Assembly (NCBI RefSeq): GCF_016758115.1
Contig: NZ_WIVG01000005.1
Location: 1-64,000, forward strand
Direction: 5' to 3'
Source: Lactococcus garvieae
Lineage (GTDB): Bacteria; Bacillota; Bacilli; Lactobacillales; Streptococcaceae
DNA: 64,000 nucleotides
Shown here piece after piece: positions 1,897 to 17,726 of this stretch. Both the position numbers and the translations under genes were made by a program. Positions within the stretch are counted from its first letter, which is position 1. Each line of letters starts with the position of its first letter. The notes under the pieces were generated by a model. It saw only the letters and a list, made by a program, of their open reading frames with translations, had not been told where the DNA came from and made no database searches.

Positions 1897-1939
1897 TGTT
1901 TGAATAACTCGCGATACCTTGTACTAACCTTATACTAAT

Positions 1940-2751: not shown

Positions 2752-2755
2752 TTTT

Positions 2756-3348: not shown

Positions 3349-3370
3349 AAATAGACCTCTTTTCTTTAAA

Positions 3371-3750
3371 ATTGGTATAGCTTATTTTCCCCCTTTTTTG
3401 GAGTAGAGAATTTTTAGTTATTTTTTTAGTATTTTGAGTATTTTCACGCCTCTTGGATACCAAAAAGGGACACCTCATAAACCGCACTGTTGAGCCTAGA
3501 ATACTCAAAATACCGAAATTTTGGTATTTTTCTCTTAAGAGAGAGAAGAAAAGAATATATGAATAAAAAAATTGGTATAGTTTCATTAAAAAAGATGTAG
3601 AGTAGATAGATACAATAACTTATAAATTTGTATCTCTTATAGAGAAATACCGATTTATTGGTATTATTGGTATTCTTTACTTTAGTAGTGCTATTTGAGC
3701 TTATTGGTAAAATAGTATACTTTGGTATTTTTAAGGCATTTGAATACCAT
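3371..3750. repeat. TTGGTAT-box array in AT-rich DNA after the replication gene
   Basis: About ten copies of TTGGTAT or its complement ATACC(A/G)A occur, for example at 3372, 3510-3530, 3572, 3646-3675, 3700, 3722 and 3743. Two pairs form palindromes: 3507-3530 (AAAATACCGAAA, then TTTTGGTATTTT) and 3646-3665. The tract is very AT-rich and lies directly downstream of the replication gene, where Gram-positive satellite origins usually sit. Confidence 0.55.
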
Positions 3751-3754
3751 TTTC

Positions 3755-5464
3755 TCAAGGCGGGGGAGTTATCTCCATTAAGCTTTCAAGGTAAGCAATC
3801 ATAGCCTTACCTGCTCGGCTTGCATTGGCAATGACAAAGGCTTTCTTAGAGGTGTAGCGCTGTTCCTGCTGGAGAAAAACCTTCCTATTGACCTGTTTCC
3901 AGCCTATATTAAACAAGGCTTGTTTGCGACGTTCCCCCTTTCTGCTCCCTTGGTAAGTGTCCTTAAGAAGCTGAACCAGCTCGGGATATTCGCCGTAATA
4001 AATCACATCAATGCCCTTGCTTCGTTCTTCAAGAATAAAGACTTGCACATCGTCAAATTCAAAAGTTTCGCTGTTAAAGTTGTTCATCTCAACATTTTTG
4101 AAATTAAATTGATAGTCTTCTGTTTTCCAGTAGAGGAAAGAGCTGATTAAGGCAGCCACTCCCGCGCTTGCTTTAGCTGTTCGACTGGTGCTTTCCTTGG
4201 TGTGTTCGGTAAAAGCTTCCCAGTAAGGTTTAAAGATTGCTTCACGAACCTTGTCGCTCTCGCCTTTTGGCCTATCTCTAAAAGAAATATTTACGGCTCG
4301 GCTGTTCATGTCTGAGGAAAGCAAGACCGCCTCATTACTGTCTATGGCAAGAACACCCGTCAAATTGACGTCCGCATAGTTTTGGCCAATTAAACGGGCA
4401 GGATGTCTACTTTCAGTTGCCAATATTTTAAGGTAGCGTTCTAGCTCCCGGTTAATTTCGCCTGCTTCGGTCACAAGTAACATCTCCCCACCGTCATAGC
4501 TTGCCCAGGCAAAGTCACTCATCTTGCCTTTGAGACTGTCTATGTCTATATCTTTGGTTTCAAAGATTGAACGGATAACCTTATGCCTGAGCCCTTTTCC
4601 TGTACGTACACCCGATTTACTGATAAAGAAACGGGTTTTTGTAATCTCGCGACAAGCCACAAGCATAGTGTAGACAGGTTGTAGCTTTGCATTGTGTAAG
4701 CTGTCGGGGTCATCAATAACCCTATCAAGGTAATTATCATAGGTCTTCATACAGTCCATGACCTCCCGCCATGTACAATCGAAAACCTTGAAATAGGTTT
4801 CGTCATCTTGAATCGTTCGGTCTGGCATAAGCTTTTTCTCTTGTAGATCAAGTTGAAAGTCCTGACAGGCGATAACTGCTGTTTTTATTTCCTTAATCGG
4901 CTTTAACTCTAAATGTTCATGGATAAACTGGATAATGTCCACAAGCTCCCGAGTAGAGAACCTGTTCCCCTTTCCGCCCACCTTATAACGGCGAGAAACT
5001 TCAAATTCTGAAAGCAATTGAAATTGACTGTTGTTAATCAAGTACAGCGCCTTGTTATAAAAGGCAATTGTCCCAAAGAGATAGTCTAGAATTGTCCTTA
5101 TGTATCGAGGTATGGGCTTGTTTGATGTGACCACTTCGATTTTTTCCGTGCCGTCTTCTACTCTCTTTTCTTTCGTGTTTGCGCCCCCATAGAAGATAGA
5201 CAGGGTGCTTATGCCGTTGTTTAAGAAGAGACTAGGGCGTTTGACCCGTTTCTTTTCTGCCCCGTCAATCTGGATGTAGGGATATTCATACAGGTCATTC
5301 TGCAAGACTTGAACAAAGTCCAAAGCCTTAGGTATTTCTGCACTGTCCACATTGTCGAACTGTTCCCAAGGCAGGGTTTTAACCTTGTCTAAGTTTTTGA
5401 CAAGTTGCCCTCTTACCTTTTTTAGTTCTTCCAGTTCTTTTATTCGTTGTTCTGTTCCTGTCAC
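3755..5464 (-). CDS. Satellite replication protein, SF3/D5-helicase-like
   Basis: This is a 569-residue protein. I place the start at GTG 5464: the upstream gene's TGA overlaps it (GTGA) and GGAGG lies 7 nt before it, whereas the ATG at 5491 has no site. The centre carries ISKSGVRTGKGLR (around residues 290-302), a Walker A variant as in superfamily-3 and D5-type helicases. It is followed by GGEMLLVTEAGE (around 325-336), a candidate Walker B. A DNLYEYPY-like N-terminal region may carry primase or DNA-binding activity. In satellites such a protein melts the element's own origin, and repeat-rich DNA follows the gene at 3371-3750. The family is inferred from these motifs; overall homology could not be tested. 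Confidence 0.65.
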   Translation of the reverse strand: MTGTEQRIKELEELKKVRGQLVKNLDKVKTLPWEQFDNVDSAEIPKALDFVQVLQNDLYEYPYIQIDGAEKKRVKRPSLFLNNGISTLSIFYGGANTKEKRVEDGTEKIEVVTSNKPIPRYIRTILDYLFGTIAFYNKALYLINNSQFQLLSEFEVSRRYKVGGKGNRFSTRELVDIIQFIHEHLELKPIKEIKTAVIACQDFQLDLQEKKLMPDRTIQDDETYFKVFDCTWREVMDCMKTYDNYLDRVIDDPDSLHNAKLQPVYTMLVACREITKTRFFISKSGVRTGKGLRHKVIRSIFETKDIDIDSLKGKMSDFAWASYDGGEMLLVTEAGEINRELERYLKILATESRHPARLIGQNYADVNLTGVLAIDSNEAVLLSSDMNSRAVNISFRDRPKGESDKVREAIFKPYWEAFTEHTKESTSRTAKASAGVAALISSFLYWKTEDYQFNFKNVEMNNFNSETFEFDDVQVFILEERSKGIDVIYYGEYPELVQLLKDTYQGSRKGERRKQALFNIGWKQVNRKVFLQQEQRYTSKKAFVIANASRAGKAMIAYLESLMEITPPP

Positions 5465-5790
5465 TCCGTATCCTCCAACTGTTCCAGCCAATCCAACTCC
5501 GCAAGATTATAGCCGTCCACTGCGCGTGAAATACTGCTTCCCGTGCGCATTTTCTTAAGAATACCTAGCCGTCTTTCTTCTTCGCTCGTAGGGATAAAAT
5601 AGCCGTCATCTACTGAGCCAATTGCACAGCCCATGCTCTGTAGCCTCTCTATCCTAGCTTGTAAGCCTCGCCCTGTGAGGTTGAGTTGTCGTTCTAGAGT
5701 GTTAAGCTTAATGGCTCGGTCAATCCCTTGATGTGACTTCATAGCCTCTAGAATAGCTTGGTCTGTTTTTGAAAAATCTGTAAGTTTCAT
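5461..5790 (-). CDS. Winged-helix DNA-binding protein of the replication operon
   Basis: This is a 109-residue protein whose stop overlaps the start of the replication gene (GTGA) and whose ATG overlaps the stop of the 62-aa gene (TAATG), so all three are translationally coupled. Residues 8-70 (QAILEAMKSHQGIDRAIKLN, then ERQLNLTGRGLQARIERLQSMG) have the periodicity of a winged helix-turn-helix with a recognition helix near GRGLQARIERL, followed by a beta-hairpin-like GYFIPTS. The family is not named. It may be a replication initiator partner or operon regulator. Confidence 0.55.
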   Translation of the reverse strand: MKLTDFSKTDQAILEAMKSHQGIDRAIKLNTLERQLNLTGRGLQARIERLQSMGCAIGSVDDGYFIPTSEEERRLGILKKMRTGSSISRAVDGYNLAELDWLEQLEDTE

Positions 5791-5978
5791 TATTTCCCCT
5801 CCCTGCCTTTACTCCATATTTTGTCAATTTTAGCGTACAAAGCGTTTGTAAATTCATCCGCTAAATTGTTTATAGTTTCATAAGTTACATCGTTTAAAAC
5901 CGTTCGTTTCTGGATGGAGTTGAGCAATTTAGACAATTTCCGTCTCATTTCAGCTTTTTCTTCTGCGGTCATATTCAT
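5790..5978 (-). CDS. Small 62-aa helical protein, first of the replication trio
   Basis: It starts at ATG 5978, with AAGGAG 9 nt upstream. The protein is charged and helical (MNMTAEEKAEMRRKLSKLLN ... KIDKIWSKGREGK) with no cysteines or membrane segment. It is coupled by TAATG to the next gene. The family is not recognised; position suggests a role in replication of the island. Confidence 0.45.
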   Translation of the reverse strand: MNMTAEEKAEMRRKLSKLLNSIQKRTVLNDVTYETINNLADEFTNALYAKIDKIWSKGREGK

Positions 5979-6084
5979 GTTGCCATTCTCCTTAATTTCG
6001 TTTATTTTGTTAAAAAAGTACCGTTTTCGATAGGTACACAGACTTCTAAAGTCCGCTTAGTATTATTTATCGCCTAACAATGAC

Positions 6085-6106
6085 AATCGCCAAATTTGCC
6101 ATTATA
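6085..6106 (-). promoter_or_regulatory. Palindrome overlapping a leftward -10
   Basis: AATCGCCAAATTTGCCATT is a near-perfect palindrome whose right edge overlaps a minus-strand TATAAT (6101-6106). It lies about 110 bp upstream of the replication trio. No good -35 is visible, which would fit an activated or repressed promoter. Confidence 0.4.
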
Positions 6107-6144
6107 CGATAATTTTTCGCCATGTTTTTTCTGTACTTGTTTAC

Positions 6145-6164
6145 CTTGTATAAGTCCTTGCCTG
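6145..6164 (+). repeat. 20-bp direct repeat, copy 1
   Basis: CTTGTATAAGTCCTTGCCTG is identical to 15735-15754 upstream of the integrase, in the same orientation. The two copies precede the two functional ends of the element's life cycle (replication and integration), so a shared regulator or an integrase/excisionase arm site is possible. Confidence 0.7.
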
Positions 6165-6170
6165 ACTTTT

Positions 6171-6452
6171 TTATTTAAGTGATAAAAATTTGCGTATCTC
6201 GTCCCTGTCGTAATAGACTTTACGTGTGTTTTCAATGGGAGGCTCGTATCGTTTTAAGCCCTCATCTTCCCACTTGTCCAATGTCCCCCAATCAATATCA
6301 AGTTCTTTGAGAACTATACTTTGAGGGATAAGCCCAATCTGAGAGTGTTTTTTATCGTCTTCTTGATTGATAAAATCTTGAATAGCTTCAAGTATGGGAC
6401 GCGCAATATCACGCGCCAATGTCTTTATAAACTCTTTGTCAAAGATGTTCAT
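6171..6452 (-). CDS. Excisionase/MerR-like HTH protein
   Basis: This is a 93-residue protein with a GAGGGGG site before ATG 6452. The C-terminal half (PQSIVLKELDIDWGTLDKWE, then ENTRKVYYDRDEIRKFLSLK) matches the helix-turn-helix-17 / excisionase layout: a short HTH, then the tail in which a basic strand ends in a YYDRDEI-like motif. It overlaps the preceding XRE gene by 14 bp. Small proteins of this type act as Xis or as minor repressors on islands. Which it is here cannot be decided. Confidence 0.55.
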   Translation of the reverse strand: MNIFDKEFIKTLARDIARPILEAIQDFINQEDDKKHSQIGLIPQSIVLKELDIDWGTLDKWEDEGLKRYEPPIENTRKVYYDRDEIRKFLSLK

Positions 6453-6654
6453 CTTTGTCCCCCTCGTCTATTAATTGCGCTACAGTAACTCCGAAATATT
6501 TTGCAATGGTTGATAATTCGCTTAGTTTAGGTGTCCTCTGACCGTTTTCCCAAGTAGAAAGAGTAGATTTTGCTTTACCTAAGGCTTTTCCTAATTCTTC
6601 TAGTGTCATTTTGTTGCTTTTTCTTAAAACTCGGAAATTTTTTGCGAAATTCAT
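6439..6654 (-). CDS. XRE-family HTH regulator
   Basis: This is a 71-residue protein. The start is MNFAKNFRVL at 6654 (AAAGGCGG upstream); a longer frame to 6717 lacks a site. Residues 5-60 form a canonical XRE helix-turn-helix (TLEELGKALGKAKSTLSTWE) with an acidic tail. It follows the 156-aa gene with 1 bp between and overlaps the next gene, so it belongs to the leftward operon. Confidence 0.75.
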   Translation of the reverse strand: MNFAKNFRVLRKSNKMTLEELGKALGKAKSTLSTWENGQRTPKLSELSTIAKYFGVTVAQLIDEGDKDEHL

Positions 6655-6655
6655 A

Positions 6656-7126
6656 TTACACCGCCTTTCTGTCTGTTGTAAGTTCAAGTACTGCAGTATT
6701 GAGCTTACTAATATCAATGTTTAATGCATGGGCTAGTTCTGCTCTATCGTTTTCTGTTAGCGCTCCGATATTGTTCCGGTGTTTTCTGCGTTGTCGTTCC
6801 TGTCTGACCCCACGGCTAAAGGCGATTTCGTAAATAGTCTCATAGGCAAAAAGTCGATACCATTCCGCCCAAAAGTTGCCAATAGAATCAGAAGCCAATC
6901 TTTGTATATCTTTTTCTACAAGTTCAGCAAGCACATATAATCCGTCTGGTAATTTCGAGTTTTTACTTGCCCTATAAATTTCTTGTCTGACTTGATGACG
7001 TTCTAAAAAGCCTCTGCGAACAGTTATTTTCTTGGGCAAGACGCTTTTGTTTATAACATGGGTATGCTTGGAAGTTTTGAGAATTACAGTATTTTTCATA
7101 GGCATAACTTTCATTTTTTTCATCAT
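6656..7126 (-). CDS. Hypothetical basic protein of the island
   Basis: This is a 156-residue protein starting MMKKMKVMPMKN at 7126, with GGAGGTG 7 nt upstream and an ATGA overlap with the preceding gene. It is strongly basic in two blocks (KKITVRRGFLERHQVRQEIY and SRGVRQERQRRKHRNN), which suggests nucleic-acid binding. The middle (NFWAEWYRLFAYETIYEIAF) is aromatic. No family is recognised. Confidence 0.5.
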   Translation of the reverse strand: MMKKMKVMPMKNTVILKTSKHTHVINKSVLPKKITVRRGFLERHQVRQEIYRASKNSKLPDGLYVLAELVEKDIQRLASDSIGNFWAEWYRLFAYETIYEIAFSRGVRQERQRRKHRNNIGALTENDRAELAHALNIDISKLNTAVLELTTDRKAV

Positions 7127-7305
7127 GCTTGCACACCTCCGATATATTCCACTTGGTAACAATCCCCTAAGAAAGTGAATGTGACAATGCTTTTCCCGTC
7201 AAAGAGTTTGTCTGTATTGTCGTCTACTTCGATATGGTGGCGGGCTTTAGGCAAGCACTGAGTAAATAAAAGTTTTGCTTCGTCTATGCTTATATATTTT
7301 TTCAT
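7123..7305 (-). CDS. Hypothetical 60-aa protein
   Basis: I choose ATG 7305 (MKKYISIDEAKLLFTQCLPK) with GGAGGA 9 nt upstream; the earlier start at 7332 has none. It ends with ATGA coupling to the next gene. The C-terminal residues TFTFLGDCYQVEYIGGVQA suggest a small beta fold. Not recognised; similar small proteins sit after regulator genes in lactococcal islands. Confidence 0.5.
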   Translation of the reverse strand: MKKYISIDEAKLLFTQCLPKARHHIEVDDNTDKLFDGKSIVTFTFLGDCYQVEYIGGVQA

Positions 7306-7324
7306 TTCTTTTTTTCCTCCAATT

Positions 7325-7376
7325 TGGTACAATTAGAGCAGAAAGCGCGTGATTGTCACGGGTTTTCTGCTTATTG
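7325..7376 (+). ncRNA. Tiny transcription unit 4, antisense between operon genes
   Basis: An extended -10 TGGTACAAT (7325-7333) is followed by a long hairpin, GCAGAAA with TTTTCTGC enclosing CGTGA-ttg-TCACG (7338-7370), then TTATTGTTTT. The predicted 35-40 nt RNA runs opposite to the operon, in the gap between the Rha gene and the 60-aa gene. The hairpin could also act on the leftward transcript. Confidence 0.35.
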
Positions 7377-7378
7377 TT

Positions 7379-8056
7379 TTAAAAGCTGTCCTCGCTCGCC
7401 AAAGTTTCGGACAGTTTTTTTGTTGCAATTTTTTCCAGCATTTCCTTAATAAACTTGTATTCAAGATTAGCCATAATAAGACCAATAGCAACTTGTTCAA
7501 GCTCTAAATAAGTTTTTTGTTCCGTTGATGTCAGTAAATTAAGCATGATGTCTTGGGTTACATCTCGCGCTTTGACTTCCTTTACAGCTTGTCCAGTCGC
7601 AAGCTTAATTAAAAGATTGTTCATAGTAGGGTATGGAAACTTAGGAGCATTCTTCCAGTTGTGAATAGCTTGGTTAAGTGTACGCTTCACAGCTTTTTCT
7701 TTAATTCGGCCAATCTTTCGGGCTTGTAGCTCTTTTTCCATTTCGTCAAATCGCTTCACAAGAGCCAGTTTAAAAGCTCGGACTGCTTCAGTATTATCAA
7801 GCCATGTAATAAGTAACATTGCTTGATTACGATTGAGTTGATAAATTTTTGTAGGACGACCACCTCTTGACCTTTTGTGAGGTTTTGTCATTTCAAATGA
7901 CAAAACTCCCAACTCTTCGAGGTCTTGCTTATTATTATCAATCAGCTTACGAACTGAAATTCTATTAAGTCCAGCATGCTTTGCAATAATAACGTGATTA
8001 GTTACAACGGCTGCTTTACTCATATCTGGACTCGTTAAAAATGTTAATTTTTTCAT
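7379..8056 (-). CDS. Rha-family phage regulatory protein
   Basis: This is a 225-residue protein with AAAGAGGAAG before ATG 8056. The N-terminal ~90 residues fit the Rha domain: TNHVIIAKHAGLNRISVRKL, then GRPTKIYQLNRNQAMLLITW, as in phi-80 Rha and related phage regulators. The C-terminal half (KRFDEMEKELQARKIGRIKE and onward) is helical and resembles the P22 AR C-terminal / ORF6C-type extensions. Such proteins act as antirepressors or early regulators. It is the second gene behind the leftward early promoter. Confidence 0.75.
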   Translation of the reverse strand: MKKLTFLTSPDMSKAAVVTNHVIIAKHAGLNRISVRKLIDNNKQDLEELGVLSFEMTKPHKRSRGGRPTKIYQLNRNQAMLLITWLDNTEAVRAFKLALVKRFDEMEKELQARKIGRIKEKAVKRTLNQAIHNWKNAPKFPYPTMNNLLIKLATGQAVKEVKARDVTQDIMLNLLTSTEQKTYLELEQVAIGLIMANLEYKFIKEMLEKIATKKLSETLASEDSF

Positions 8057-8181
8057 TCTTCCTCTTTCTAGCGCACGCGCTTTAGTTTCTGTTTGGACAT
8101 AGCATTTATAGCCTGCTTGGGGCTTGTTGTTCTTTTAGTGGTTTTTAGCAATCGCTAGGCATAGGTTTTAGTCAGTAAAGG

Positions 8182-8388
8182 TCAGTTGATTTTGTAAGCT
8201 TCACATACTGCGCTGATGAAAATATTCGCATATGGTGTACCTTTCTGTTTGCCTAAAAGAATTGCGGATACATCTTGTTTAGGGTATCCAGTCAATCGAA
8301 CTAAGGCTTGTTGTGTCCAGCCTTTCTCTGACAAAAATTGTCTAATTTTTATGCGGTATTCGTTCATATTCTTTGTAGTGTCAATCAT
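8182..8388 (-). CDS. Cro-like HTH regulator, first leftward gene
   Basis: This is a 68-residue protein. MIDTTKNMNEYRIKIRQFLS starts at 8388 behind AAAGGA; the longer frame to 8469 runs through the promoter. The HTH is KGWTQQALVRLTGYPKQDVS. It is transcribed divergently from the CI-like gene and lies behind the leftward promoter at 8595-8623, the standard place for a Cro/Str-type protein of a phage or island switch. Confidence 0.75.
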   Translation of the reverse strand: MIDTTKNMNEYRIKIRQFLSEKGWTQQALVRLTGYPKQDVSAILLGKQKGTPYANIFISAVCEAYKIN

Positions 8389-8450
8389 TGTTAAGTGTTC
8401 CTTTCTTTTTGTGTGTAAGGTGTTTTGTAAGTATATTTGTGTGTTTTCAT

Positions 8451-8479
8451 TTGACAAATGAGTACACATTTACTACAAT
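8451..8479 (+). promoter_or_regulatory. Rightward promoter for the CI-like repressor
   Basis: TTGACA (8451-8456), 17 bp, then TACAAT (8474-8479). The -35 region is part of the 16-bp operator TTGACAAATGAGTACA. Confidence 0.75.
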
Positions 8480-8594
8480 GAATGTATAGTAAAAATCGTA
8501 TAGAAAAATTGCTTAATAAACTAATATCAATGGCTGGCGGGCTTATTGAATTTGTTTATAAGGGCTTTTTGCTTACGATTTATCTTACAAGATT

Positions 8595-8623
8595 ATTGTA
8601 TAATATCTGTACTCACTTGTCAA
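8595..8623 (-). promoter_or_regulatory. Leftward early promoter
   Basis: On the minus strand TTGACA (8623-8618), 17 bp, then TACAAT (8600-8595). It points left toward the Cro-like gene, facing the rightward promoter, so both transcripts overlap across about 8487-8588. Confidence 0.75.
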
Positions 8624-8682
8624 ATTTTAAGTACATATTTGCTACAAATAATTTTCTTGTACTTTCTGAAAGGGCGCTACTA

Positions 8683-9069
8683 ATGAATTTGTACGAAAAA
8701 ATAAAAGAGCTTGCAGCTAAAAAAAATATATCAATAAGACAATTAGAAGAGAAATTACAACTTGCTAATGGAACTATAAGGCGCTGGGGTAAGACTAACC
8801 CTTCTACTAGTGCTGTTACAAAAGTTGCTGACTACTTCAACGTATCAATAGACTATTTGCTTGGGCGCGAGGAAGCAAAGCCTGTAAGTGAGCCTATAGA
8901 CTTGGCAGAAGTCGCAAATTCTGATGATGACGCTATCTTTGATAGTATTCTTAGCGCCGGAGGTCGTCCCTTGACGGACAAGGACAAAGCCATGATTAAA
9001 CTTGTATTTGCTGACCGCTGGGAAGAATTACAACAAAAAGCAAAAGACTTGAAAGATAGTGAAAAATGA
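8683..9069 (+). CDS. CI-like repressor
   Basis: This is a 128-residue protein. The start MNLYEKIKELAAKKNIS at 8683 (GAAAGGG upstream) is preferred over a 67-residue N-terminal extension that crosses the operators. The N-terminal XRE HTH (ISIRQLEEKLQLANGTIRRW) ends with the typical FNVSIDYLLGRE. The rest is acidic and short, and lacks a LexA-like peptidase domain. The next gene is an ImmA-like protease, so induction probably works by proteolysis in trans, as in ICEBs1 and TP901-1-like systems. Confidence 0.8.
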   Translation: MNLYEKIKELAAKKNISIRQLEEKLQLANGTIRRWGKTNPSTSAVTKVADYFNVSIDYLLGREEAKPVSEPIDLAEVANSDDDAIFDSILSAGGRPLTDKDKAMIKLVFADRWEELQQKAKDLKDSEK

Positions 9070-9078
9070 GGGCGATAG

Positions 9079-9633
9079 ATGAAACAAGAAGAACTAATCG
9101 CCCTTGTAGTGGATAAGGTTGAGAAATTAGGTATAGACTATAGACCCTTTGAATACGATAATCAAAGAGCTTGGATAGATACACGTCTTTGTATTGGAGG
9201 TTATAACCCAAACACAGCCACACCCTTTGACCATGCACACGAATATATGCATGCCTATTACAATGACAATAGACGTCAAGGCGAGTGCGATACAGTAAGC
9301 CGCGCAGAACGGAGAGCCAACAAAGAGGCTATCCTTATGTTGTGGGACTGGTTCGTCCAATGGGGTGGCACTTTCGATGATATACCCCACTTCTGCAAAG
9401 TGACAGGATGTCCGTATCAAATGACAGACAGACTTATTCGGTCAATGTGCTATGATGTGAGCGACAAGAGCTTTAAAGAGTGCGCAGTTGAATACGTCAG
9501 TCAATTTGATGTCATCACGCGCGATACTCTCAATATCTACAACTTTTTAGACTATTACGGCTATCATCATAATGCTTATGATGAGGCAAAAGCTCTACTT
9601 TTTGAGCTGTGCTGGTTCGAGTTAGCAGTGTAA
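9079..9633 (+). CDS. ImmA/IrrE-family metallopeptidase
   Basis: This is a 184-residue protein 9 bp after the repressor, with GAGGGCGAT before ATG. Zinc motif HEYMH (residues 54-58), with a downstream E77 in AERRANKEA as the likely third ligand, is the ImmA/COG2856 arrangement. ImmA proteins cleave their neighbouring repressor on derepression signals. The pair therefore forms the inducible switch of the island; the target assignment comes from gene order. Confidence 0.75.
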   Translation: MKQEELIALVVDKVEKLGIDYRPFEYDNQRAWIDTRLCIGGYNPNTATPFDHAHEYMHAYYNDNRRQGECDTVSRAERRANKEAILMLWDWFVQWGGTFDDIPHFCKVTGCPYQMTDRLIRSMCYDVSDKSFKECAVEYVSQFDVITRDTLNIYNFLDYYGYHHNAYDEAKALLFELCWFELAV

Positions 9634-9749
9634 AAGAACAGACCTTATTACAGGATGAGGATTTTTTTGAAATAAGGGCGTATCTGTATCGCTTTAAACC
9701 TTTATAAATAGAGTATTAAAAAAGAAGATTAAGGAAAATTTAAGGAAGA

Positions 9750-11762
9750 ATGAACGAAAAAGTAAAATGGGCGAATGAAGATTCCGTTAATGATTGGGTC
9801 AATGAACAACTTAAAGCAATAGGATTAAAAAGGGATATTGATTTTTTTACAGAATCAAATATGACAGACTACCTTAAAGAATCTCTTAAAGGTTCCGCTA
9901 AAACCCTCAAAAAAACGAATTTTGGAAAGCCAGATTTTCATACACTCAAATATGATATCCCTGTTGTTATTGAAAACAAATTTAAGCAAACCAAACTTAT
10001 TTCTCAAACAAAAGACGGTATAAAATTTGATGATAAGGCAATAAGTGGGTATGCTGTGAATGGTGCATTATACTACGCTCGCAATATGATTTCATCAGGG
10101 CGATATAGCGAAGTCATTGCTATCGGTTGTGCTGGAGATAGTCCTACTAATATTGAATTTAAAATTTACTATGTTTACGGTTTTGGTGAGAATTCTTTTA
10201 AAGAAATGGAAGAGTATAAAACTTTTGATTTTCTCTCAAGTAAAAATACTTTTAAAGAATTTATCAAAGACGCTACACTTACTGAAGAAGAAAAACATGA
10301 CATTTTAATTCAATCAAAAGAACAACTTGCTAAATATTCAAAAGCATTAAACAAACTTATGCATAATCATAATATAACTGCTCCTCAGCGCGTGTTATAT
10401 GTATCAGGTATGCTTTTATCAATGCAGGATGTAGATAAGCGTAATCAAGGTTTAGCTCCTGAAGATTTACGAGGAAGAGCTGGGAAACAATCAGACGGAG
10501 CACTTGTTGTTGCTCAAATAGAAGTCTTTTTGGATAGTCGAGAACTTCCTATCCCTGAAGATAAAAAAAGATTAATGCTGTCCTCATTCAATGAAATAGC
10601 TAAAGACTCCGATAGAGATAAACCAACTGTTTTAGACAAAGAAGTAAGCAAATTTATTTCTGAGGATAAAGCTTCTGCCAATAAGCAAATATTTACTTTT
10701 ATCTATGAGTACATTTTTAAATCAATAGACGGTATGGCTGGAACTTTAGATATTATGGGAGAAATGTATTCAGAGTTTCTAAAATACGCGCTAGGAGACG
10801 GAAAAGAAATAGGAATAGTGCTTACTCCCCCTTATGTAACTAAAATGATGGCTCAAATTCTTGGAGTTAATAAAAATTCACGAGTTATGGACTTAGCAAC
10901 GGGCTCGGCTGGATTCCTTATTGCTTCCATGGAATTAATGATTGCGGATGCAGAAAGTCAAGGGCGCAAAGGTTCTGAAGCAGCAGAGAATAAAATTAAA
11001 GAAATTAAAGAAAAACAACTCTTAGGAGTTGAGCTTAATGCAGAAATGTTTACGCTGGCTGCTACTAATATGATTCTACGGGGGGATGGTTCTTCTAATA
11101 TACAAAAAGGTAATACTTTCGATACTCCCGCAAATCTTTACGATGATTTTCAAGCTGATACTTTGCTTCTAAACCCACCTTTTAGTTTTGAAGAAAACGG
11201 TATGCCTTTTATTAAGTTTGGTTTAGAACGTATGAAAGAAGGCGGTTTAGCCGGAATCATTATTCAAGATTCCGCAGGTTCAGGAAAAGCTGTTAATTCC
11301 ACTCAAGCCATGCTTAAAAATAATCAACTTGTAGCTTCTATTAAAATGCCCGTAGACTTGTTTATGCCTATGGCTGGGGTACAAACATCTATTTATATTT
11401 TAAAACATACAAATAAACCTCATGATTTCGATATTCCCGTAAAATTTATAGATTTTAGAAATGATGGCTACAAGCGAACAAAACGTAATCTACAAGAAAT
11501 TGATAGTCCAACAGCTCGTTATTCTGATATTGTTAAAATCTATAAAGCAGGTAAGAATGCAAAGAATTTACAGGCAGATTGGAATTTAGAGGAAATCTAT
11601 ATAGAAGACCAAATCACAAATTCTGGTGCTGATTGGAATTTTGACCAACACAAAAAAATAGATACAAAGCCAACTTTTGATGATTTTAGAAAGACTGTTT
11701 CCGACTATTTAGCTTGGGAAGTAGAACAGATTTTAAAAAGTGAGGATTTCTCGGGAAAATAA
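9750..11762 (+). CDS. BcgI-like type IIB restriction-modification subunit (nuclease plus N6-adenine methylase)
   Basis: This is a 670-residue protein; TTAAGGAAGA precedes ATG 9750. The N-terminus has a PD-(D/E)xK nuclease signature: P61-D62 followed by E75-N-K77 (IPVVIENKFKQ). The central and C-terminal part is an HsdM-type gamma-class methylase: DLATGSAGFL (SAM motif I, around residue 380) and LLNPPFSF (catalytic NPPF, around 475). Carrying both activities in one chain next to a two-domain specificity gene matches the BcgIA architecture (about 637 aa), not a type I HsdM. Such enzymes cut on both sides of a bipartite site and methylate it in the same complex. It is cargo of the island and probably excludes phages. 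Confidence 0.75.
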   Translation: MNEKVKWANEDSVNDWVNEQLKAIGLKRDIDFFTESNMTDYLKESLKGSAKTLKKTNFGKPDFHTLKYDIPVVIENKFKQTKLISQTKDGIKFDDKAISGYAVNGALYYARNMISSGRYSEVIAIGCAGDSPTNIEFKIYYVYGFGENSFKEMEEYKTFDFLSSKNTFKEFIKDATLTEEEKHDILIQSKEQLAKYSKALNKLMHNHNITAPQRVLYVSGMLLSMQDVDKRNQGLAPEDLRGRAGKQSDGALVVAQIEVFLDSRELPIPEDKKRLMLSSFNEIAKDSDRDKPTVLDKEVSKFISEDKASANKQIFTFIYEYIFKSIDGMAGTLDIMGEMYSEFLKYALGDGKEIGIVLTPPYVTKMMAQILGVNKNSRVMDLATGSAGFLIASMELMIADAESQGRKGSEAAENKIKEIKEKQLLGVELNAEMFTLAATNMILRGDGSSNIQKGNTFDTPANLYDDFQADTLLLNPPFSFEENGMPFIKFGLERMKEGGLAGIIIQDSAGSGKAVNSTQAMLKNNQLVASIKMPVDLFMPMAGVQTSIYILKHTNKPHDFDIPVKFIDFRNDGYKRTKRNLQEIDSPTARYSDIVKIYKAGKNAKNLQADWNLEEIYIEDQITNSGADWNFDQHKKIDTKPTFDDFRKTVSDYLAWEVEQILKSEDFSGK

Positions 11763-11763
11763 A

Positions 11764-11824
11764 TCGCCAATCTATGCAAGATAAGCTTGAACAGCTTGAA
11801 AAGAAGTATCGTATAGATTGGCGA
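11764..11824 (+). promoter_or_regulatory. Inverted repeat covering the specificity-subunit start codon
   Basis: TCGCCAATCTATGC (11764-11777) pairs with GTATAGATTGGCGA (11811-11824): 14 pairs, one G-U, loop 33 nt. The ATG at 11774-11776 lies inside the left arm and no strong ribosome binding site is visible, so folding would hide the start. Confidence 0.6.
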
Positions 11825-12925
11825 GAATATAGAATAGGTGATTTGTTTGAAATTAAGAATACCTTTAGTTTTAATAAAGATAAGCTTGTTCCTGGGAATG
11901 AGTATGACTATATAACTCGAACTTCTCAAAACCAAGGAATCTTACAAAAAACTGGATTTGTCAATCTGGAAAATATAAATCCTGCAGGCGTCTGGAGCTT
12001 GGGATTGTTACAAATGGATTTTTTCTATCGTCAAAAGCCTTGGTATGCAGGGCAATTTGTAAAAAAAGTGCTTCCTAAAATTGAACTCTCCAAAAGAGCA
12101 GTTCAATATTTCACAGTTTTACTAAATAAACAGAAAGCTGGTTTACTTTCAGGCTTAGTTCGAGATGTTGATAAAACATTTAAAGAAGCAATAGTAAATC
12201 TTCCAACTCACAACAATGAAATAGCGTTTGATTACATTGAAGAGTTTGTAAATACGCTCGAGGCGGAACGTCTCGCTACGCTCGAGGCGTACTTATTGGC
12301 AACAGGTTTGAAAAATACAGAACTTACTTCTGAAGAACGCTCAGCCCTTGATAAACTAGGGGGGGCAGGTTCTGTTAAGTGGCGTGATTTTAGAAATGAT
12401 GAATTGTTCGATGTTTCACCGTCAAAATCTTATTCTGGTTTTAATGATGATAAAATCTTAGTTAAAAATGGAAAAACGCCTTATGTTTCTAATCAGTCAC
12501 AAGATAATGGTTATATTGGTTGGAGCAATTTGGAGCCATTGAATGAAGAAAATGTTATTACTTTGAGTGATACATGGCAGTCTGAACGAACTATTTTTTA
12601 TCAACCCAAAGCATTCATCGGAAAAAGCCATCTACAAGTAATGACCCCACTTATGGAGGGATTTGATATGTATTCTGCAATGTTTATCATCTCAAGTTTT
12701 AGAAAATCAATTTTGAAAATAAATTATGATTATGGAACGAAGTTCAACCGTGCTAAGATTAAAGCAACTAAAATTCAGTTACCAGTAAAAGAAGATGGAT
12801 TGCTTGATTTTGAGTTTATGACGACCTTGATTAAAGCCATGCAAAAAGTTGTTATTAAAAACGTTGTAATATATTTGGATAAGCGTATAGCTTTAACTGA
12901 CGAGGCCGTTAAAAAGTTTCATTAA
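11774..12925 (+). CDS. BcgIB/HsdS-like specificity subunit
   Basis: This is a 383-residue protein 11 bp after the nuclease-methylase gene. Two target-recognition halves are visible, each starting W-R-(E/D)-(Y/F)-R: WREYRIGDLFEIKNTFSF (residue ~17) and WRDFRNDELFDVSPSKSY (residue ~208). Between them is the helical spacer ending TLEAERLATLEAYLLATGLK. The layout and length fit BcgIB (about 341 aa) and type I HsdS proteins. Each half reads one part of a bipartite DNA site. The spacer is encoded by a 24-bp period repeat (12254-12289). The start lies in a stable hairpin. Confidence 0.75.
   Translation: MQDKLEQLEKKYRIDWREYRIGDLFEIKNTFSFNKDKLVPGNEYDYITRTSQNQGILQKTGFVNLENINPAGVWSLGLLQMDFFYRQKPWYAGQFVKKVLPKIELSKRAVQYFTVLLNKQKAGLLSGLVRDVDKTFKEAIVNLPTHNNEIAFDYIEEFVNTLEAERLATLEAYLLATGLKNTELTSEERSALDKLGGAGSVKWRDFRNDELFDVSPSKSYSGFNDDKILVKNGKTPYVSNQSQDNGYIGWSNLEPLNEENVITLSDTWQSERTIFYQPKAFIGKSHLQVMTPLMEGFDMYSAMFIISSFRKSILKINYDYGTKFNRAKIKATKIQLPVKEDGLLDFEFMTTLIKAMQKVVIKNVVIYLDKRIALTDEAVKKFH
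12254..12289 (+). repeat. 24-bp-period repeat inside the specificity gene
   Basis: ACGCTCGAGGCG occurs at 12254-12265 and 12278-12289, encoding TLEA-ERLA-TLEA in the spacer helix. It is more GC-rich than its surroundings. Confidence 0.65.
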
Positions 12926-13037
12926 GTTTTAAACTTTAGTATTTCTTAACAAGATAAAAAGCGCCTAAGCGCGTGCTAACCTCCCTCTTAATTTGTTCAT
13001 AAGAGAAAAAGCAATAAAAATAAAGAAAGGAGAACCT

Positions 13038-13313
13038 ATGGGAGTCTCTCGTATAAGTTCAAACAGTATGGTCGCTCAAGAAGCTGTCTCTAAACTGACA
13101 CGGCTTGACGGTGCTGTTCTTCAAAATGAAAAGGTAGAATTTTCAGGCAGTACAGTAGCTTGCATGGAAGCAGGGCAAAAACTTACCAATCAAATGCTTA
13201 ATGCTTTGGGAGATTTTGTCGGAAGTGTTGAAAAGCAAGCCCATAAAATCACAGGCTTGGCACAAAAGATAGAACATGACGATAAAGCAGACAGTCAAAG
13301 CTGGGGGTTCTAA
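13038..13313 (+). CDS. LXG-associated helical protein Lap1-like (DUF3130/TIGR04197)
   Basis: This is a 91-residue protein. MGVSRISSNSMVAQEAVSKL starts at 13038 behind AAAGGAGA; the longer frame lacks a site. It is small, helical and WXG100-sized. The pattern SNSMVAQEAVSKL with MLNALGDFVGSVEKQAHKI fits the SACOL2603-type effector family (DUF3130), which pairs with LXG toxins and helps target them to the type VII secretion system. It is the first gene of a four-gene module, joined by TAATG to the next. The assignment rests on pattern and gene order. Confidence 0.7.
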   Translation: MGVSRISSNSMVAQEAVSKLTRLDGAVLQNEKVEFSGSTVACMEAGQKLTNQMLNALGDFVGSVEKQAHKITGLAQKIEHDDKADSQSWGF

Positions 13314-13666
13314 TGGCAAAAGAAAAACATGCAGAAGCCTTGTTTCTTTTAAATCGAGAGCTTGCACAAGAAGAACAGTCTCAAGATGAGTTATATCAAG
13401 AAGAAAAGCATATCTATCATCAAGTGGAGCAGTTTCAAGAAGATATTAACCGTCTTTTTAGGCAAGAAGAAAGCTATTATTCTGAACTTCAAAAACAAGG
13501 CGTTTTATCCTCTCCTATGGACTTTGCCTTGAATGAAATAAAGAGAGAAATAAGAGATCTGACTGAGCGACAAAAAGAGCTACTTACAAATGCTTATCGT
13601 TTGGAGAGAAACAAGAAGCAAGCCAAAATAGAACAACTTCAAAAAGAAAGGACGCATTTGCTGTGA
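13313..13666 (+). CDS. LXG-associated helical protein Lap2-like (DUF3958)
   Basis: This 117-residue protein is almost entirely charged coiled coil (LNRELAQEEQSQDELYQEEK, then RLFRQEESYYSELQKQG). The size and the position between a DUF3130-like protein and an LXG toxin match Lap2/DUF3958 proteins, which bind the LXG domain as targeting partners. Its ATG overlaps the upstream stop and its stop overlaps the downstream GTG, so the three proteins are probably made in fixed ratio. Confidence 0.65.
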   Translation: MAKEKHAEALFLLNRELAQEEQSQDELYQEEKHIYHQVEQFQEDINRLFRQEESYYSELQKQGVLSSPMDFALNEIKREIRDLTERQKELLTNAYRLERNKKQAKIEQLQKERTHLL

Positions 13667-15021
13667 AATATACTAAGAATGACGGTCAGCTTTTAAGCTC
13701 CGCCCTTAAGCATAATCTAAAAATAGCAAATCAGATTGTAGAAGATGTTCAAGGGGGAGTCAACCACCTTTTAAACCTGTTAGAGTCTGGGGCTTTATCT
13801 GGGCAAGCCTATCATGCTGCAGCTACTCTTTTCAAAGAGATTGTAACCCCCGCCGTTCAAAAGCTGAAAGAATCAACGCGAACAATCAAGGCAGAACTCC
13901 AAACTTTTGACCAAGCCCGCCGTCAATTTGACACTTACCCCGACCCTGTTTATGACGAGGAAGTCTATGAGCGCCTTTTAGAGTTAAAACGCCAACAAAA
14001 AGCGAGAGTTGACCTCCAGCTTGACATGTTTAACAGCTTGTTAGTCACGGGGCTGGCTAAGGAGGCAATAAAGGACTTTGTCTATGAGGGGCAAAGGCTA
14101 CAAAGCGTATCTGCACACTATGAGCAAGAAATTCAAGAACTTGAAAATAAACTGCGTATCTTGCATGACTTTTCAAGTGCGACCGCGGGACTTTTTCAAG
14201 AGAGTCTGCAGGCTTTCCAAAGTGCTATGCATGGTGCAAGGGCATTAAGCTGGGGGAGTTTTGACTCTCGGGGACGGTTTAGAATGCCCTCGGATGTAGA
14301 CTTGTCTTGGTATAAAAAGATGACAGGAAAATCAATCAGCAAGAACTTACTCCATGCCCCGAAACACATCAAACTTGGTGAGATAGAAATGGCTAAGGTT
14401 TCTCAAATGAATGCGAAAACGCAAGCACGTCTTAAACGCCTTGCCAAGGAAGCTGGGCTTACTTTAGCAGAAGCTATGGCTCTTTATATTGAGGCTTCTA
14501 GGACAGTGCTTACAAAGACTGGAGAGGGGGCAGGTAATGTTTGGGATTTTATTTCTAAGGAGTTTGGAAAACTAAACCCGCAAAATAGAGTTAAAGGCGG
14601 GGATATTATCAAAACAGTTGTTTATTATACAAATAGTGGTGAAGTAAAGATAATTTATAATGAGACCCAAAATGTAGTACTTTCTTTTGGTGGTGGGGTT
14701 ATGGCCAACATGAATAAGTTTAACGGCATTAATGCTGACTCTGGTGTAGAATATGTAGCACCTCAAGAACAATCTAAAGGCTGGAAGAAAGGGCAAGAAC
14801 AACAAGCAGAAAAAGGACAAATGACCTTAGATATTTTAGGAGATTTGACATCAGCCAAAGATTTTGTTAATTCCTATAAATTTGAGGAAAAGGAAAGTAT
14901 ATCCGGAAAAGAGTATCTTGATAATCTTGCCAAGGAAAAAGAAAGAAAACTCCAAGAAGAAGCTATAAAAGCACAACAAAGAATATCTGGCGGAGGAAAT
15001 CCAGCCAGTCTAGGGTCATAA
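13663..15021 (+). CDS. LXG-domain type VII secretion toxin with unrecognised C-terminus
   Basis: This is a 452-residue protein with GTG start 13663 (GTGA overlap). Residues 1 to ~200 are the helical LXG-type targeting domain (GALSGQAYHAAATLFKEIVT, then DTYPDPVYDEEVYERLLELK). The remainder (residues ~235-452) should be the toxic part. It contains NAKTQARLKRLAKEAGLTLA, then GGDIIKTVVYYTNSGEVKII and a glycine-rich LSFGGGVMANMNKFNG, and ends lysine-rich. I recognise no nuclease, NADase or lipid II phosphatase motif. The gene is followed after 3 bp by a likely immunity gene. No secretion machinery is on the island, so export would need a chromosomal T7SSb elsewhere. Confidence 0.7.
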   Translation: MKYTKNDGQLLSSALKHNLKIANQIVEDVQGGVNHLLNLLESGALSGQAYHAAATLFKEIVTPAVQKLKESTRTIKAELQTFDQARRQFDTYPDPVYDEEVYERLLELKRQQKARVDLQLDMFNSLLVTGLAKEAIKDFVYEGQRLQSVSAHYEQEIQELENKLRILHDFSSATAGLFQESLQAFQSAMHGARALSWGSFDSRGRFRMPSDVDLSWYKKMTGKSISKNLLHAPKHIKLGEIEMAKVSQMNAKTQARLKRLAKEAGLTLAEAMALYIEASRTVLTKTGEGAGNVWDFISKEFGKLNPQNRVKGGDIIKTVVYYTNSGEVKIIYNETQNVVLSFGGGVMANMNKFNGINADSGVEYVAPQEQSKGWKKGQEQQAEKGQMTLDILGDLTSAKDFVNSYKFEEKESISGKEYLDNLAKEKERKLQEEAIKAQQRISGGGNPASLGS

Positions 15022-15024
15022 GAT

Positions 15025-15420
15025 ATGGATAATGGAACAGATTTTGAAAATAAAATTATTGATGAAATTAAAAATTTGATTATTTCGGACAGCTCTTTGA
15101 CGTATGGTGAACGAAATACTTTTGATCGGTTTATTATAAAAATAGAACAAGGTGAATCTTTTGAAAATGCTGTGGGGAAGCTTTTAAAAAACTTAAAAAG
15201 ATTGGAAAATAAAGAAATCCAAGTTTCCGGTCTTACTCCTGGAGCAAAAAAAATCTTTGAGCAATTGTATGGTAAGTATGATATTCCTATAAAAACCGAT
15301 AATTATTCTGTTTTTACAGGCTCTGGTGCAGGTAGAAGATTAACAAATAAAGAACTAATTCAGGTTACTATATTCTTGGTTATTGTTATCTTAGCCTATA
15401 TCTTGTATCAAATATATTAA
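15025..15420 (+). CDS. Putative immunity protein with C-terminal membrane anchor
   Basis: This 131-residue protein lies 3 bp after the LXG toxin. The N-terminal ~105 residues are acidic and soluble. Residues ~110-129 (QVTIFLVIVILAYILYQIY) form one transmembrane helix, with no residues after it. There is no signal peptide, so the soluble part should face the cytoplasm (tail-anchored). Position and single-copy pairing indicate the immunity gene for the LXG toxin. The membrane anchor suggests the toxin acts at or near the membrane. No family is recognised. Confidence 0.6.
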   Translation: MDNGTDFENKIIDEIKNLIISDSSLTYGERNTFDRFIIKIEQGESFENAVGKLLKNLKRLENKEIQVSGLTPGAKKIFEQLYGKYDIPIKTDNYSVFTGSGAGRRLTNKELIQVTIFLVIVILAYILYQIY

Positions 15421-15530
15421 AAATAAGAGTATTGAGGGACTCCCCACATTTTTGTGTTGAGTAAATTCTAATGTTGTTAGTCTTTTTTGATTAACAGGTC
15501 AGATTTTGTATAAATGCTGTCATGTTATAG

Positions 15531-15595
15531 CATTTGATATTTTATGAAATAGATAGTCCTGTCTATGTTCTATTTGATATTTTAGCGAATAGACT
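15531..15595 (+). repeat. Direct repeat pair, 40-bp period
   Basis: ATTTGATATTTTA is perfect at 15532-15544 and 15572-15584, with flanking GAAATAGATA / GAATAGACT similarity. Two such sites near an integrase are typical of arm-type binding sites. Confidence 0.6.
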
Positions 15596-15734
15596 AAAGG
15601 TTTAATATCACGCGCATTTAAAACAGTATAGGCGCGTGAGTAACTGCTATGTGCAAAGCTGAACCACGTTAAAAGCTGAATAATAATCGCTGTGTTGTTT
15701 TATATAAATTAAATTCTATATATCATCTTTTTAT

Positions 15735-15754
15735 CTTGTATAAGTCCTTGCCTG
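15735..15754 (+). repeat. 20-bp direct repeat, copy 2
   Basis: This is identical to 6145-6164. It ends 28 bp before the integrase ATG. Confidence 0.7.
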
Positions 15755-15782
15755 GTATTAGTACAAAAGAAAGAGGTTGATT

Positions 15783-16973
15783 ATGAAAATAGAAACAATC
15801 ACAAAAAAAGACGGTACAACAGTGTACCGCACAGCAGTTTATCTTGGTGTTGATAGTCTAACAGGGAAAAAAGTCAAAACCTATGTCACTGCTAAAACAA
15901 AGAAAGCTTTAAAAAGTCTTTCTGATATAAAGATAGCAGAATTTGAACGAAACGGCAAGACTCGACTGAGGAAAAAAGTAGAGTTTGATAATTTCGAGAG
16001 CTTGGCCAATGCTTGGCTAGAGGACTACTTGCTTACAGTAAAATCAAATAGTCAAGCAATGATGAAATCACACTTTAAACGCTATATTATCCCTGCCTTG
16101 GGCAGTTATAAGGTTGAGAAGATAAGCGCACCGCTTTTACAGTCAATCGTCAATGACTGGGCTAAAAAAGCCAATACAGCTTCAATAAGTAAAGGGAAAC
16201 GCCCTGCGGGGGCTTCCTCTAACTATGGTGTCTTGTTGAACACTGTACAACGAATCTTAGACTATGCTTTTCAATTGGGGGTTATTTCAAATAATCCCGC
16301 TCGCATGGTTATTGCACCACGTTTAAAGGCGAGAGGGAAACAGAAGCTAAAATACTTGGATAAAAAGCAATTAAAAGCATTCCTTAATTATCTTGATAGC
16401 CTAGAGCAGACAGACAAGAACGTCTTTTCAGTTACCTTGTACAAGTTGTTACTTGATACAGGTTTGCGTATAGGGGAAGCCTTAGCCCTCAACTGGTCGG
16501 ATATTGATTATAATGACAATATCATCCATGTTAGTAAGACCGTTGACAGGCTGGGGAAAGTACAAGACAGCCCTAAGTCTAAGAGCGGTGTTCGTGATAT
16601 ATCTGTTTCTCAACGTACAATGCTTATGCTTAAGCAGTGGCAAAATAGGCAAAGAATCTTACACCAAAAGCATAGGCTATCCACTCATATTGTTTTTTCA
16701 TCATCAGTTGGTGGCTATCTGTCTAGGGGATGTGTATCTCGCACGCTAGATACTCACTATAAAAATGCAGGTCTAGCCCTCACAGGCTTTCATGCTTTCC
16801 GTCACACTCATGCAAGTCTTTTACTTAATGCTGGAGCAGATTATAAAGAAATTCAGCATAGATTAGGTCATGCAAAGATAGGGATGACAATAGACACATA
16901 CAGTCACCTTGCGCCCGATAAGGCAAAAGAGACGGCCTCGATTTATGAACAAGCGCTTAAAAATTTGGGGTAA
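15783..16973 (+). CDS. int: Tyrosine-family site-specific integrase
   Basis: This is a 396-residue protein. ATG 15783 is 6 nt after AAAGAGG; the TTG at 15777 lies too close. Domains in order: an N-terminal AP2-like arm-binding region (TKKDGTTVYRTAVYLGVDS, residues 5-60), a SAM-like core-binding domain (FESLANAWLEDYLLTVKSN, ~70-170), then the catalytic domain with R in DTGLRIGEALAL (~226), HxxR in HAFRHTH (~337-343), LGHAKIGMT and the Tyr in DTYSHL (~374). It resembles Tn916/phage Int of Gram-positive bacteria. It ends 6 bp before attR and should recombine the 28-bp core. Confidence 0.9.
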   Translation: MKIETITKKDGTTVYRTAVYLGVDSLTGKKVKTYVTAKTKKALKSLSDIKIAEFERNGKTRLRKKVEFDNFESLANAWLEDYLLTVKSNSQAMMKSHFKRYIIPALGSYKVEKISAPLLQSIVNDWAKKANTASISKGKRPAGASSNYGVLLNTVQRILDYAFQLGVISNNPARMVIAPRLKARGKQKLKYLDKKQLKAFLNYLDSLEQTDKNVFSVTLYKLLLDTGLRIGEALALNWSDIDYNDNIIHVSKTVDRLGKVQDSPKSKSGVRDISVSQRTMLMLKQWQNRQRILHQKHRLSTHIVFSSSVGGYLSRGCVSRTLDTHYKNAGLALTGFHAFRHTHASLLLNAGADYKEIQHRLGHAKIGMTIDTYSHLAPDKAKETASIYEQALKNLG

Positions 16974-16978
16974 AACTC

Positions 16979-17006
16979 AAAAGGTTCATAAAAAGTGTCA
17001 TAAATT
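16979..17006 (+). repeat. attR: right 28-bp direct repeat
   Basis: This is identical to attL (782-809) and follows the integrase stop by 5 bp. Beyond it lies the chromosome leading to comX. Confidence 0.8.
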
Positions 17007-17031
17007 GATAAAGTACATCATTCTACAATAT

Positions 17032-17073
17032 AAGCTAGGGGCTTAACAAAGCCGTCTCTAGCTGTTTTTTCTA
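17032..17073 (+). terminator. Terminator after the integrase and attR
   Basis: AGCTAG...CTAGCT encloses GGCTT-aaca-AAGCC and is followed by GTTTTTT. It insulates comX from island transcription. Confidence 0.65.
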
Positions 17074-17237
17074 TTAAGTTTCCTTATTTATTTAAGAAAT
17101 AAAAATAATTTGATAATCATTTTTACGCGAAGCTATGGTATTCTACTGTTAGGAGTAGAGATAAAAAAGAGGGAGGAAATTTATCATATAGTTAGTGATT
17201 AAAAGGTATTTGAGAATTAGAGAGGAGATGGAGGCAG

Positions 17238-17726
17238 ATGCTGAATAATAACTTGGATAAGGAACAGTTGGAAGAAATATTTCATTCGGTTCAACATATT
17301 GTATGGAAGAACAGTCATTTAATTAAGATAAATCTTTGGACAATGGATGATTATCGACAGGAAGGACGTTTGGTTCTCTATAAATTGCTTGAGGATGGTG
17401 TGACTCATGAAAAACTATATTGTCATTTTAAAGTACGGTATAAACAAAGACTAATAGATATAAAAAGAAGAGAGCGAGCGTTTAAGCGGGGTTTTGACTG
17501 TGGGAGTGGTCTGGATATATACGAGTGTTCAGATGCCTTGGAAGGTAAAGCTGACACTCCTGAACACATGTTGATTTCAGCAACTCTGCTCGAAGAGGTT
17601 CTTCAACGTTTGAGTTTGAGATATCGTAAGTTACTGAAAAACCATCTGTCAGGCGGTGAATTACATAGGATGGAAAAGTATCGTTTAAAAGAGAAAATAA
17701 AGCAAATATTATATGAAAAAGAATAA
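17238..17726 (+). CDS. comX: ComX competence sigma factor
   Basis: This 162-residue protein has GGAGATGGAGG before ATG 17238. It has ComX landmarks: HLIKINLWTMDDYRQEGRLV (sigma region 2; compare the LWELSDWDQEG pattern of streptococcal ComX), then CHFKVRYKQRLIDIKRRERA, and a region 4-like HTH in the last 50 residues (LLEEVLQRLSLRYRKLLKNH). ComX directs RNA polymerase to the late competence (DNA uptake) genes. Length is usual for Lactococcus (about 163 aa). The island ends about 230 bp upstream, so comX keeps only that much native upstream DNA. No frameshift is seen. Confidence 0.85.
   Translation: MLNNNLDKEQLEEIFHSVQHIVWKNSHLIKINLWTMDDYRQEGRLVLYKLLEDGVTHEKLYCHFKVRYKQRLIDIKRRERAFKRGFDCGSGLDIYECSDALEGKADTPEHMLISATLLEEVLQRLSLRYRKLLKNHLSGGELHRMEKYRLKEKIKQILYEKE

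Follow-up and report, generated by a model that had tools for sequence, protein, structure and literature searches.

The four-gene module at positions 13038-15420 of the window (the whole 64,000-nt stretch that was analysed) is probably a cassette for an antibacterial T7SSb effector, riding as cargo on a satellite-like island and encoding a membrane-acting toxin together with an EntA/LciA-type immunity protein. The gene order, the homologies, the island ends, the presence of T7SSb genes in the same genome and the recurrence of the toxin domain with an immunity gene can all be read from the sequence. The initial annotation of this DNA proved sound with regard to the LXG module, its satellite-like carrier, the host T7SSb, the unmatched C-terminus and the tail anchor; its view that carriage by a mobile element is unusual did not hold, and it named neither the EntA/LciA family of the immunity candidate nor the toxin-tip relic in a T7SS locus of the host. 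In the following, G000 is the window's own genome, with C2 and C86 being two of its contigs; G007, G011, G013 and G014 are other genomes compared, and L-numbers denote individual loci examined.

Module layout and the LXG protein

The module consists of four intact open reading frames on the plus strand, encoding Lap1-like, Lap2-like, LXG and tail-anchored proteins. Neighbouring genes overlap or are spaced by 3 bp, and the flanks are a restriction-modification pair (9750-12925) on one side and an integrase gene (15777-16973) on the other, which confirms the early description of four coupled genes between a restriction system and an integrase. The features are as follows.

13038-13313, +, Lap1-like targeting factor (DUF3130/TIGR04197-like), 91 aa, with an AAAGGAG ribosome-binding site
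13313-13666, +, Lap2-like helical partner, 117 aa
13663-15021, +, putative LXG toxin, 452 aa, GTG start
13663-14352, +, LXG (secretion) domain, toxin residues 1-230
14353-15021, +, candidate C-terminal toxin domain: beta-meander, variable insert, GxxYL and charged helix tail
15025-15420, +, putative immunity protein, 131 aa: four-helix EntA/LciA-like bundle (residues 3-82), linker, C-terminal TM helix (108-130)

Judged by its profile matches, the LXG assignment of the 452-aa protein is real but divergent. PF04740 matches the whole protein with E=7e-4 and residues 1-230 alone with E=1.8e-4, both below the Pfam curated cut-off; LXG is matched by 10 of 11 aligned relatives of the toxin (best E=2.6e-8), and the LxG motif is present as LSG at residues 45-47. 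The LXG identity that had been proposed from the letters alone is thus backed by a profile match at the N-terminus. This head is 22-52% identical to the LXGs of T7SS loci and orphan modules, including 44-52% to four other orphan modules. The two upstream genes are assigned as putative lap1 and lap2 by homology to their counterparts in the host T7SS locus on C2. The Lap1-like protein matches the C2 Lap1 with E=9.5e-7 (phmmer) and TIGR04197 weakly (E=0.076), while the Lap2-like protein matches the C2 Lap2 with E=2.8e-4 (phmmer), is 30-37% identical to its counterparts in other orphan modules and has no match in Pfam, where DUF3958 was the expected Lap2 family. The export motif described for Lap1 is FxxxD (PMC9600955); at the corresponding helix 2 end, the window Lap1 has IEHDD (IxxxD), and the T7SS-locus Lap1 likewise has IxxxD.

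The C-terminal domain is common to 9 further loci, each with an EntA/LciA-like gene following, a recurrence that is partly circular because the locus set was supplied by immunity neighbours, except for the window, C86, L046, L050 and L094, which came from the toxin search itself. These loci have in common a D-[DN]-I motif, a beta-meander, N-x-[TS], a variable insert, and GxxY with a charged helix tail, of which C86 retains the tail only. The invariant residues of the toxin-domain alignment (A3) are one D, one N, one G and one Y, and a conserved catalytic constellation or signature was not found. Searches of Pfam and PDB agree with the earlier statement that the C-terminus resembles no known fold, as the domain has no match in either. 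Its maximum hydropathy is 0.93, with no TM segment or glycine zipper, and a glycine-zipper or TM pore reading of the toxin was ruled out on this basis. Given a domain that lacks a recognised fold, a catalytic signature, a TM segment and a glycine zipper, a pore formed by the domain itself is unlikely. It should be mentioned that the AlphaFold model of this domain reaches a pLDDT of only 50, and with such low confidence a fold search from the model is meaningless. A profile search at the family level (335 genomes) gave no additional full-length carrier of the toxin domain, and in the order-level sample (395 genomes) the domain was found in the window's own genome only, with none outside the family. 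Judged by these searches, which returned no solved or profiled relative, the toxin domain appears to be previously undescribed.

Close relatives of the module were found in two genomes. In G011, a 49% homologue is flanked by queA- and nagB-like genes; its toxin reading frame is interrupted within the C-terminal domain, and its immunity ORF is intact. The T7SSb locus on contig C86 of G000 (L043) has a 64-aa toxin remnant matching residues 390-452 at 63%. Downstream of this remnant are genes for an immunity homologue (49%) and another EntA-like protein; together they form a toxin-tip and immunity relic within the T7SS locus of the host itself. Heads of this LXG subclass (44-46%) are joined to unrelated C-termini at L047, which adjoins an integrase and a tgt gene, at L048 on an ICE-like segment and at L049 near a repressor gene; they indicate that head and tip recombine, as in other polymorphic toxins. 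LXG modules outside T7SS loci may also include an extra YukD gene near repressor/ImmA-like genes, as observed at L050:6752-7003 (PF08817 E=4e-13) and L094:4100-4351.

DNA-level searches with the module gave no match in the phage and plasmid collections. By tblastn the toxin had no match in the phage collection, and in plasmids it found three Enterococcus records, in which 25% identity is confined to the LXG domain. In viral_contigs and genome_contigs, pattern-based scans yielded no confirmed relative, and an LXG of the window's subclass was not found in the phage and viral-contig collections. LXG matches in four 'phage' records (OR846588, PQ520030, OR850457 and OR844998) were set aside; the records are unannotated, some are only 1.5-4 kb, and they are possibly bacterial DNA. 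A separate observation concerns the Enterococcus sp. PLM3 plasmid AP025691.1 (L112), typed as conjugative, which carries an apparent T7SSb locus, in which an LXG gene (PF04740 E=5e-7) accompanies the gene of a large FtsK-domain protein.

Family and structure of the putative immunity protein

The protein encoded at 15025-15420 is placed by profile comparison in the EntA_Immun/LciA superfamily of class II bacteriocin immunity proteins, with an added tail anchor; this is homology and not proof of function. Alone, it matches Pfam EntA_Immun with E=0.016, below the cut-off, while hmmsearch gives E=3.9e-5 for the same protein. The Pfam profile matches 7 of 13 aligned family members, with a best value of 3.6e-8. 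When the LXG-linked immunity family, which was collected by a search with the first relatives of the window protein, was compared by HHalign to 17 canonical EntA_Immun proteins of the genus, the probability was 98.1% (E=1.3e-13); the window-type trio gave 93.7% (E=1.9e-7) against the same 17 proteins. Helical controls, the alignments of Lap1, Lap2 and LXG, stayed below 1% probability against EntA_Immun, which rules out chance helical likeness as the source of the similarity. A PDB sequence search with the immunity-family profile lists the lactococcin A immunity protein (LciA) first, with E=0.005.

The AlphaFold2 model of the 131-aa protein (pLDDT 85) has helices at residues 3-21, 27-41, 46-61 and 72-82 and a separate helix at 108-130. 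The last one coincides with the single TM helix of the protein, in agreement with the C-terminal membrane helix initially assigned to the immunity candidate. Foldseek aligns the model to LciA (5lfi) with an rmsd of 1.7 Å over 74 columns (prob 0.89, E=2) and also lists PedB (2ip6) with an E-value above 1; there is no Foldseek match at E<=0.001, and values above 1 are expected for a bundle this small.

LXG genes or LXG C-terminal fragments have a family member as their direct 3' neighbour at ten loci (L050, L094, L088, L085, L083, L084, L087, the window, L043 and L046), where the two genes overlap or are at most 34 bp apart; L086, L089 and L090 are stand-alone members. No small bacteriocin-like ORF was found in 13000-15800 that would link the window protein to a class II bacteriocin gene, its upstream neighbour being the LXG gene. 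The family has the traits of immunity genes, namely tandem diverged copies, stand-alone copies, and retention of the immunity gene after toxin loss at two sister loci. The TM tail is absent in some of the LXG-linked proteins, as in L050, the second copy of L043 and, by length and sequence, the first copy of L083; membrane action may therefore not be general. In G014 (L083, L084), several EntA-like immunity genes that have diverged from each other, some of them fused, stand in tandem downstream of LXG C-terminal cassettes. The genome G013, which is without an EssC or LXG match, has LXG-type EntA-like immunity genes with membrane tails (L089:4484-5020, L090:5599-6198), possibly as orphan immunity against T7SS attackers.

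The carrier island and the host secretion system

The module lies on an island of ~16 kb (782-17006), which is bounded by perfect 28-bp direct repeats and has the following features besides the module.

782-809, left att repeat AAAAGGTTCATAAAAAGTGTCATAAATT, perfect 28-bp direct repeat
3755-5491, -, satellite replication helicase (phrog_5609 E=4e-166; closest Lactococcus phage bIL311, 57% identity)
9750-12925, +, type IIG restriction-methyltransferase and specificity subunit, co-cargo (PADLOC PDLC03616 713 bits; PDLC03593 252 bits)
15777-16973, +, tyrosine integrase of the island (PF00589 E=9e-29, phrog_1 E=2e-65)
16979-17006, right att repeat, perfect 28-bp direct repeat, 6 bp after the integrase stop

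A type I reading of the restriction genes was ruled out by the PADLOC assignment of a type IIG fused restriction-methyltransferase with an S subunit. The island further encodes divergent regulators and a Rha protein, and its Rha/repressor region is 78% identical in DNA to bIL310. No capsid, tail or other structural gene was recognised among the island ORFs scanned, and a terminase or packaging-interference gene was not identified on the island. Taken by gene content, with an integrase, att repeats, divergent regulators, a primase/helicase and no structural genes, the carrier is classed as a satellite-like island of the phage satellite/PICI kind. In G007, the sequences corresponding to window positions 433-624 and 17117 onward are directly contiguous, and the island is therefore an insertion; the breakpoint is somewhat wider than the 28-bp repeats, indicating that part of the surrounding 300 bp is also missing in G007.

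Directly downstream of the island lies a ComX-like sigma-factor gene (17238-17726), which was identified by inspection and has no Pfam or NCBIfam match. The island (window 625-17116; L121) parts this gene from the sequence that trails a 5S rRNA/tRNA cluster in G007, and its position might influence competence regulation. A stretch of ~80 bp at 62838-62921, downstream of rpsD, is 82-89% like the island left end including the att core and has an orthologous copy in G007; from this likeness it is read as an old integration scar or a secondary att site.

The island itself has no secretion genes, consistent with the original reading of an effector that travels without its own machinery, and the expected T7SSb genes were found elsewhere in G000. 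Two loci on other contigs, C2 and C86, encode EssC (1363 and 1311 bits), and EsaA was also found. The order on C2 is esxA, essA, yukD, essB, essC, a DUF4176-like gene, lap1, lap2, LXG, ..., esaA, with all names except EssC and EsaA given by inspection, and the locus apparently encodes a full T7SSb. The essC gene of C86 (L043:10994-15460) has one in-frame TGA, which is due either to a pseudogene or to a sequencing error. Across 18 genomes of the genus, EssC (cut-off E<1e-100) is present in seven, comprising all six LXG-bearing genomes and one of the other 12 (p=4e-4), an association that is partly trivial, some of the LXGs being part of T7SS loci. With the count restricted to the window's LXG subclass, EssC is present in 3/3 genomes (p=0.04). 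The two EssC loci of G000 make T7SSb export of the toxin possible only.

Possible mechanism and comparison with known systems

We infer toxicity, toxin-immunity pairing, neutralisation, export and site of action as follows. Lap1 and Lap2 would bind the LXG head and pass the toxin to the host T7SSb, which would export it into a neighbouring cell, where the C-terminal domain may act at or on the cytoplasmic membrane of non-kin. Held at the inner membrane face by its C-terminal helix, the four-helix bundle encoded by the last gene would block the toxin there and so protect the producer. T7SSb export and membrane action are favoured because the known context of the immunity family is membrane-acting bacteriocins, because pore plugging of the LciA type has been reported, and because the window copy is tail-anchored. 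LciA-type proteins are reported to plug bacteriocin-induced pores from the cytosol (PMC10783117).

It is also conceivable, with a clearly smaller probability, that the C-terminal domain is a cytoplasmic enzyme, which the EntA-like bundle would bind directly as a generic helical inhibitor, the TM tail being incidental. LXG toxins with cytosolic enzymatic targets are known, such as TelB (PMC5555719). The toxin domain has no TM segment, and the immunity proteins that lack a TM helix, those already listed from L050, L043 and L083, keep such an enzyme under consideration; against it, the four invariant residues of the domain form no conserved catalytic constellation. Moreover, characterised members of the EntA/LciA superfamily guard against membrane-acting bacteriocins.

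We consider it improbable that the module is a decaying passenger, an LXG cassette acquired by the satellite, with its expression or export since lost. The module region has no clear promoter excess, the sister copies are broken (the toxin frame in G011, the tip only in C86), and one of the two essC genes has the in-frame stop noted above; however, the four ORFs are intact and coupled, the island ends are intact, and the C2 secretion locus is apparently full. Still less probable is a role of the fourth gene as a third targeting or chaperone factor, with the true immunity gene absent or elsewhere. In favour of it, the gene encodes a small helical protein and is closely linked to the LXG gene, and export of S. 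aureus EsaD uses three small partners (PMC10653861). Against a targeting factor speak the copies of the gene that are tandem, diverged or stand-alone, its persistence where the toxin is lost, membrane tails that vary, and the homology to bacteriocin immunity proteins.

Within the favoured reading of a membrane-acting toxin, a more specific and rather doubtful proposal is that this clade of LXG toxins corresponds in function to class II bacteriocins, with the T7SS as delivery route: the C-terminal domain would turn a membrane receptor, for example a PTS permease, into a leak, which the tail-anchored EntA/LciA bundle would plug or block from the cytosolic side. If this were true, polymorphic-toxin warfare would have taken over an immunity family of bacteriocins, and phage satellites would have spread it. 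The module would link two antibacterial systems of lactic acid bacteria that are usually considered apart, the small receptor-targeting bacteriocins with EntA/LciA immunity and the large LXG polymorphic toxins exported by T7SSb. If the toxin-immunity pairing is confirmed, the known mechanism of LciA offers a target hypothesis, open to direct test, for a toxin domain of no recognisable fold. The window also shows one satellite-like island that combines a restriction system with a putative T7SS effector, reliant on secretion genes that lie on other contigs of the host.

A literature search, mostly without subscription papers, gave no report joining LXG with enterocin A immunity, or type VII secretion with bacteriocin immunity; within that literature, bacteriocin-type immunity for an LXG toxin and the toxin domain of this LXG protein appear to be new. 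Mobility of the module alone is not new, since LXG genes on prophages and a plasmid have been published (PMC8321402). B. subtilis has the LXG genes yobL, yokI and yqcG on prophage-like elements and one on plasmid pBS32, with SPbeta and skin among the published carriers, likewise away from the secretion locus; those elements and the three enterococcal plasmids contradict the initial view of mobile carriage as exceptional, and the difference here is that the carrier is a satellite-like island. The Lactococcus satellites bIL310 and bIL311 are alike in size (14.5-15 kb), and the similarities of the helicase to bIL311 and of the repressor region to bIL310 are given above. The accessory genes between repressor and integrase in bIL310 are other small genes, whereas the same slot of the window island holds the restriction-modification and LXG genes. 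These satellite relatives, together with an nrdD gene that matches Lactococcus plasmid copies at 79%, suggest a Lactococcus-like host.

The TelC and TelD modules of S. intermedius, with LapC1/C2 and LapD1/D2 (PMC9600955), have the same Lap1-Lap2-LXG-immunity order and the LSG motif, with family matches that are weak but real. In contrast to these systems, the window toxin domain is unrelated to known ones by the searches run, its immunity protein is of the EntA/LciA type instead of TipC or DUF443 (TipD), and a satellite-like island, distant from T7SS genes, carries the module. TelE/TipE of S. gallolyticus (PMC10434224) includes a membrane-destabilising LXG toxin with a stretch described as weakly homologous to a bacteriocin IIc; however, the glycine zipper of TelE and its DUF5085 immunity protein are not seen in the window module. 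EntA_Immun, PedB and LciA proteins share the homologous four-helix bundle (HHalign 98%; Foldseek 5lfi, 2ip6), and the canonical EntA_Immun members sampled in the genus have 87-126 aa, compared to 131 aa for the window protein, whose upstream partner is an LXG polymorphic toxin and not a small bacteriocin, and which adds a C-terminal TM anchor.
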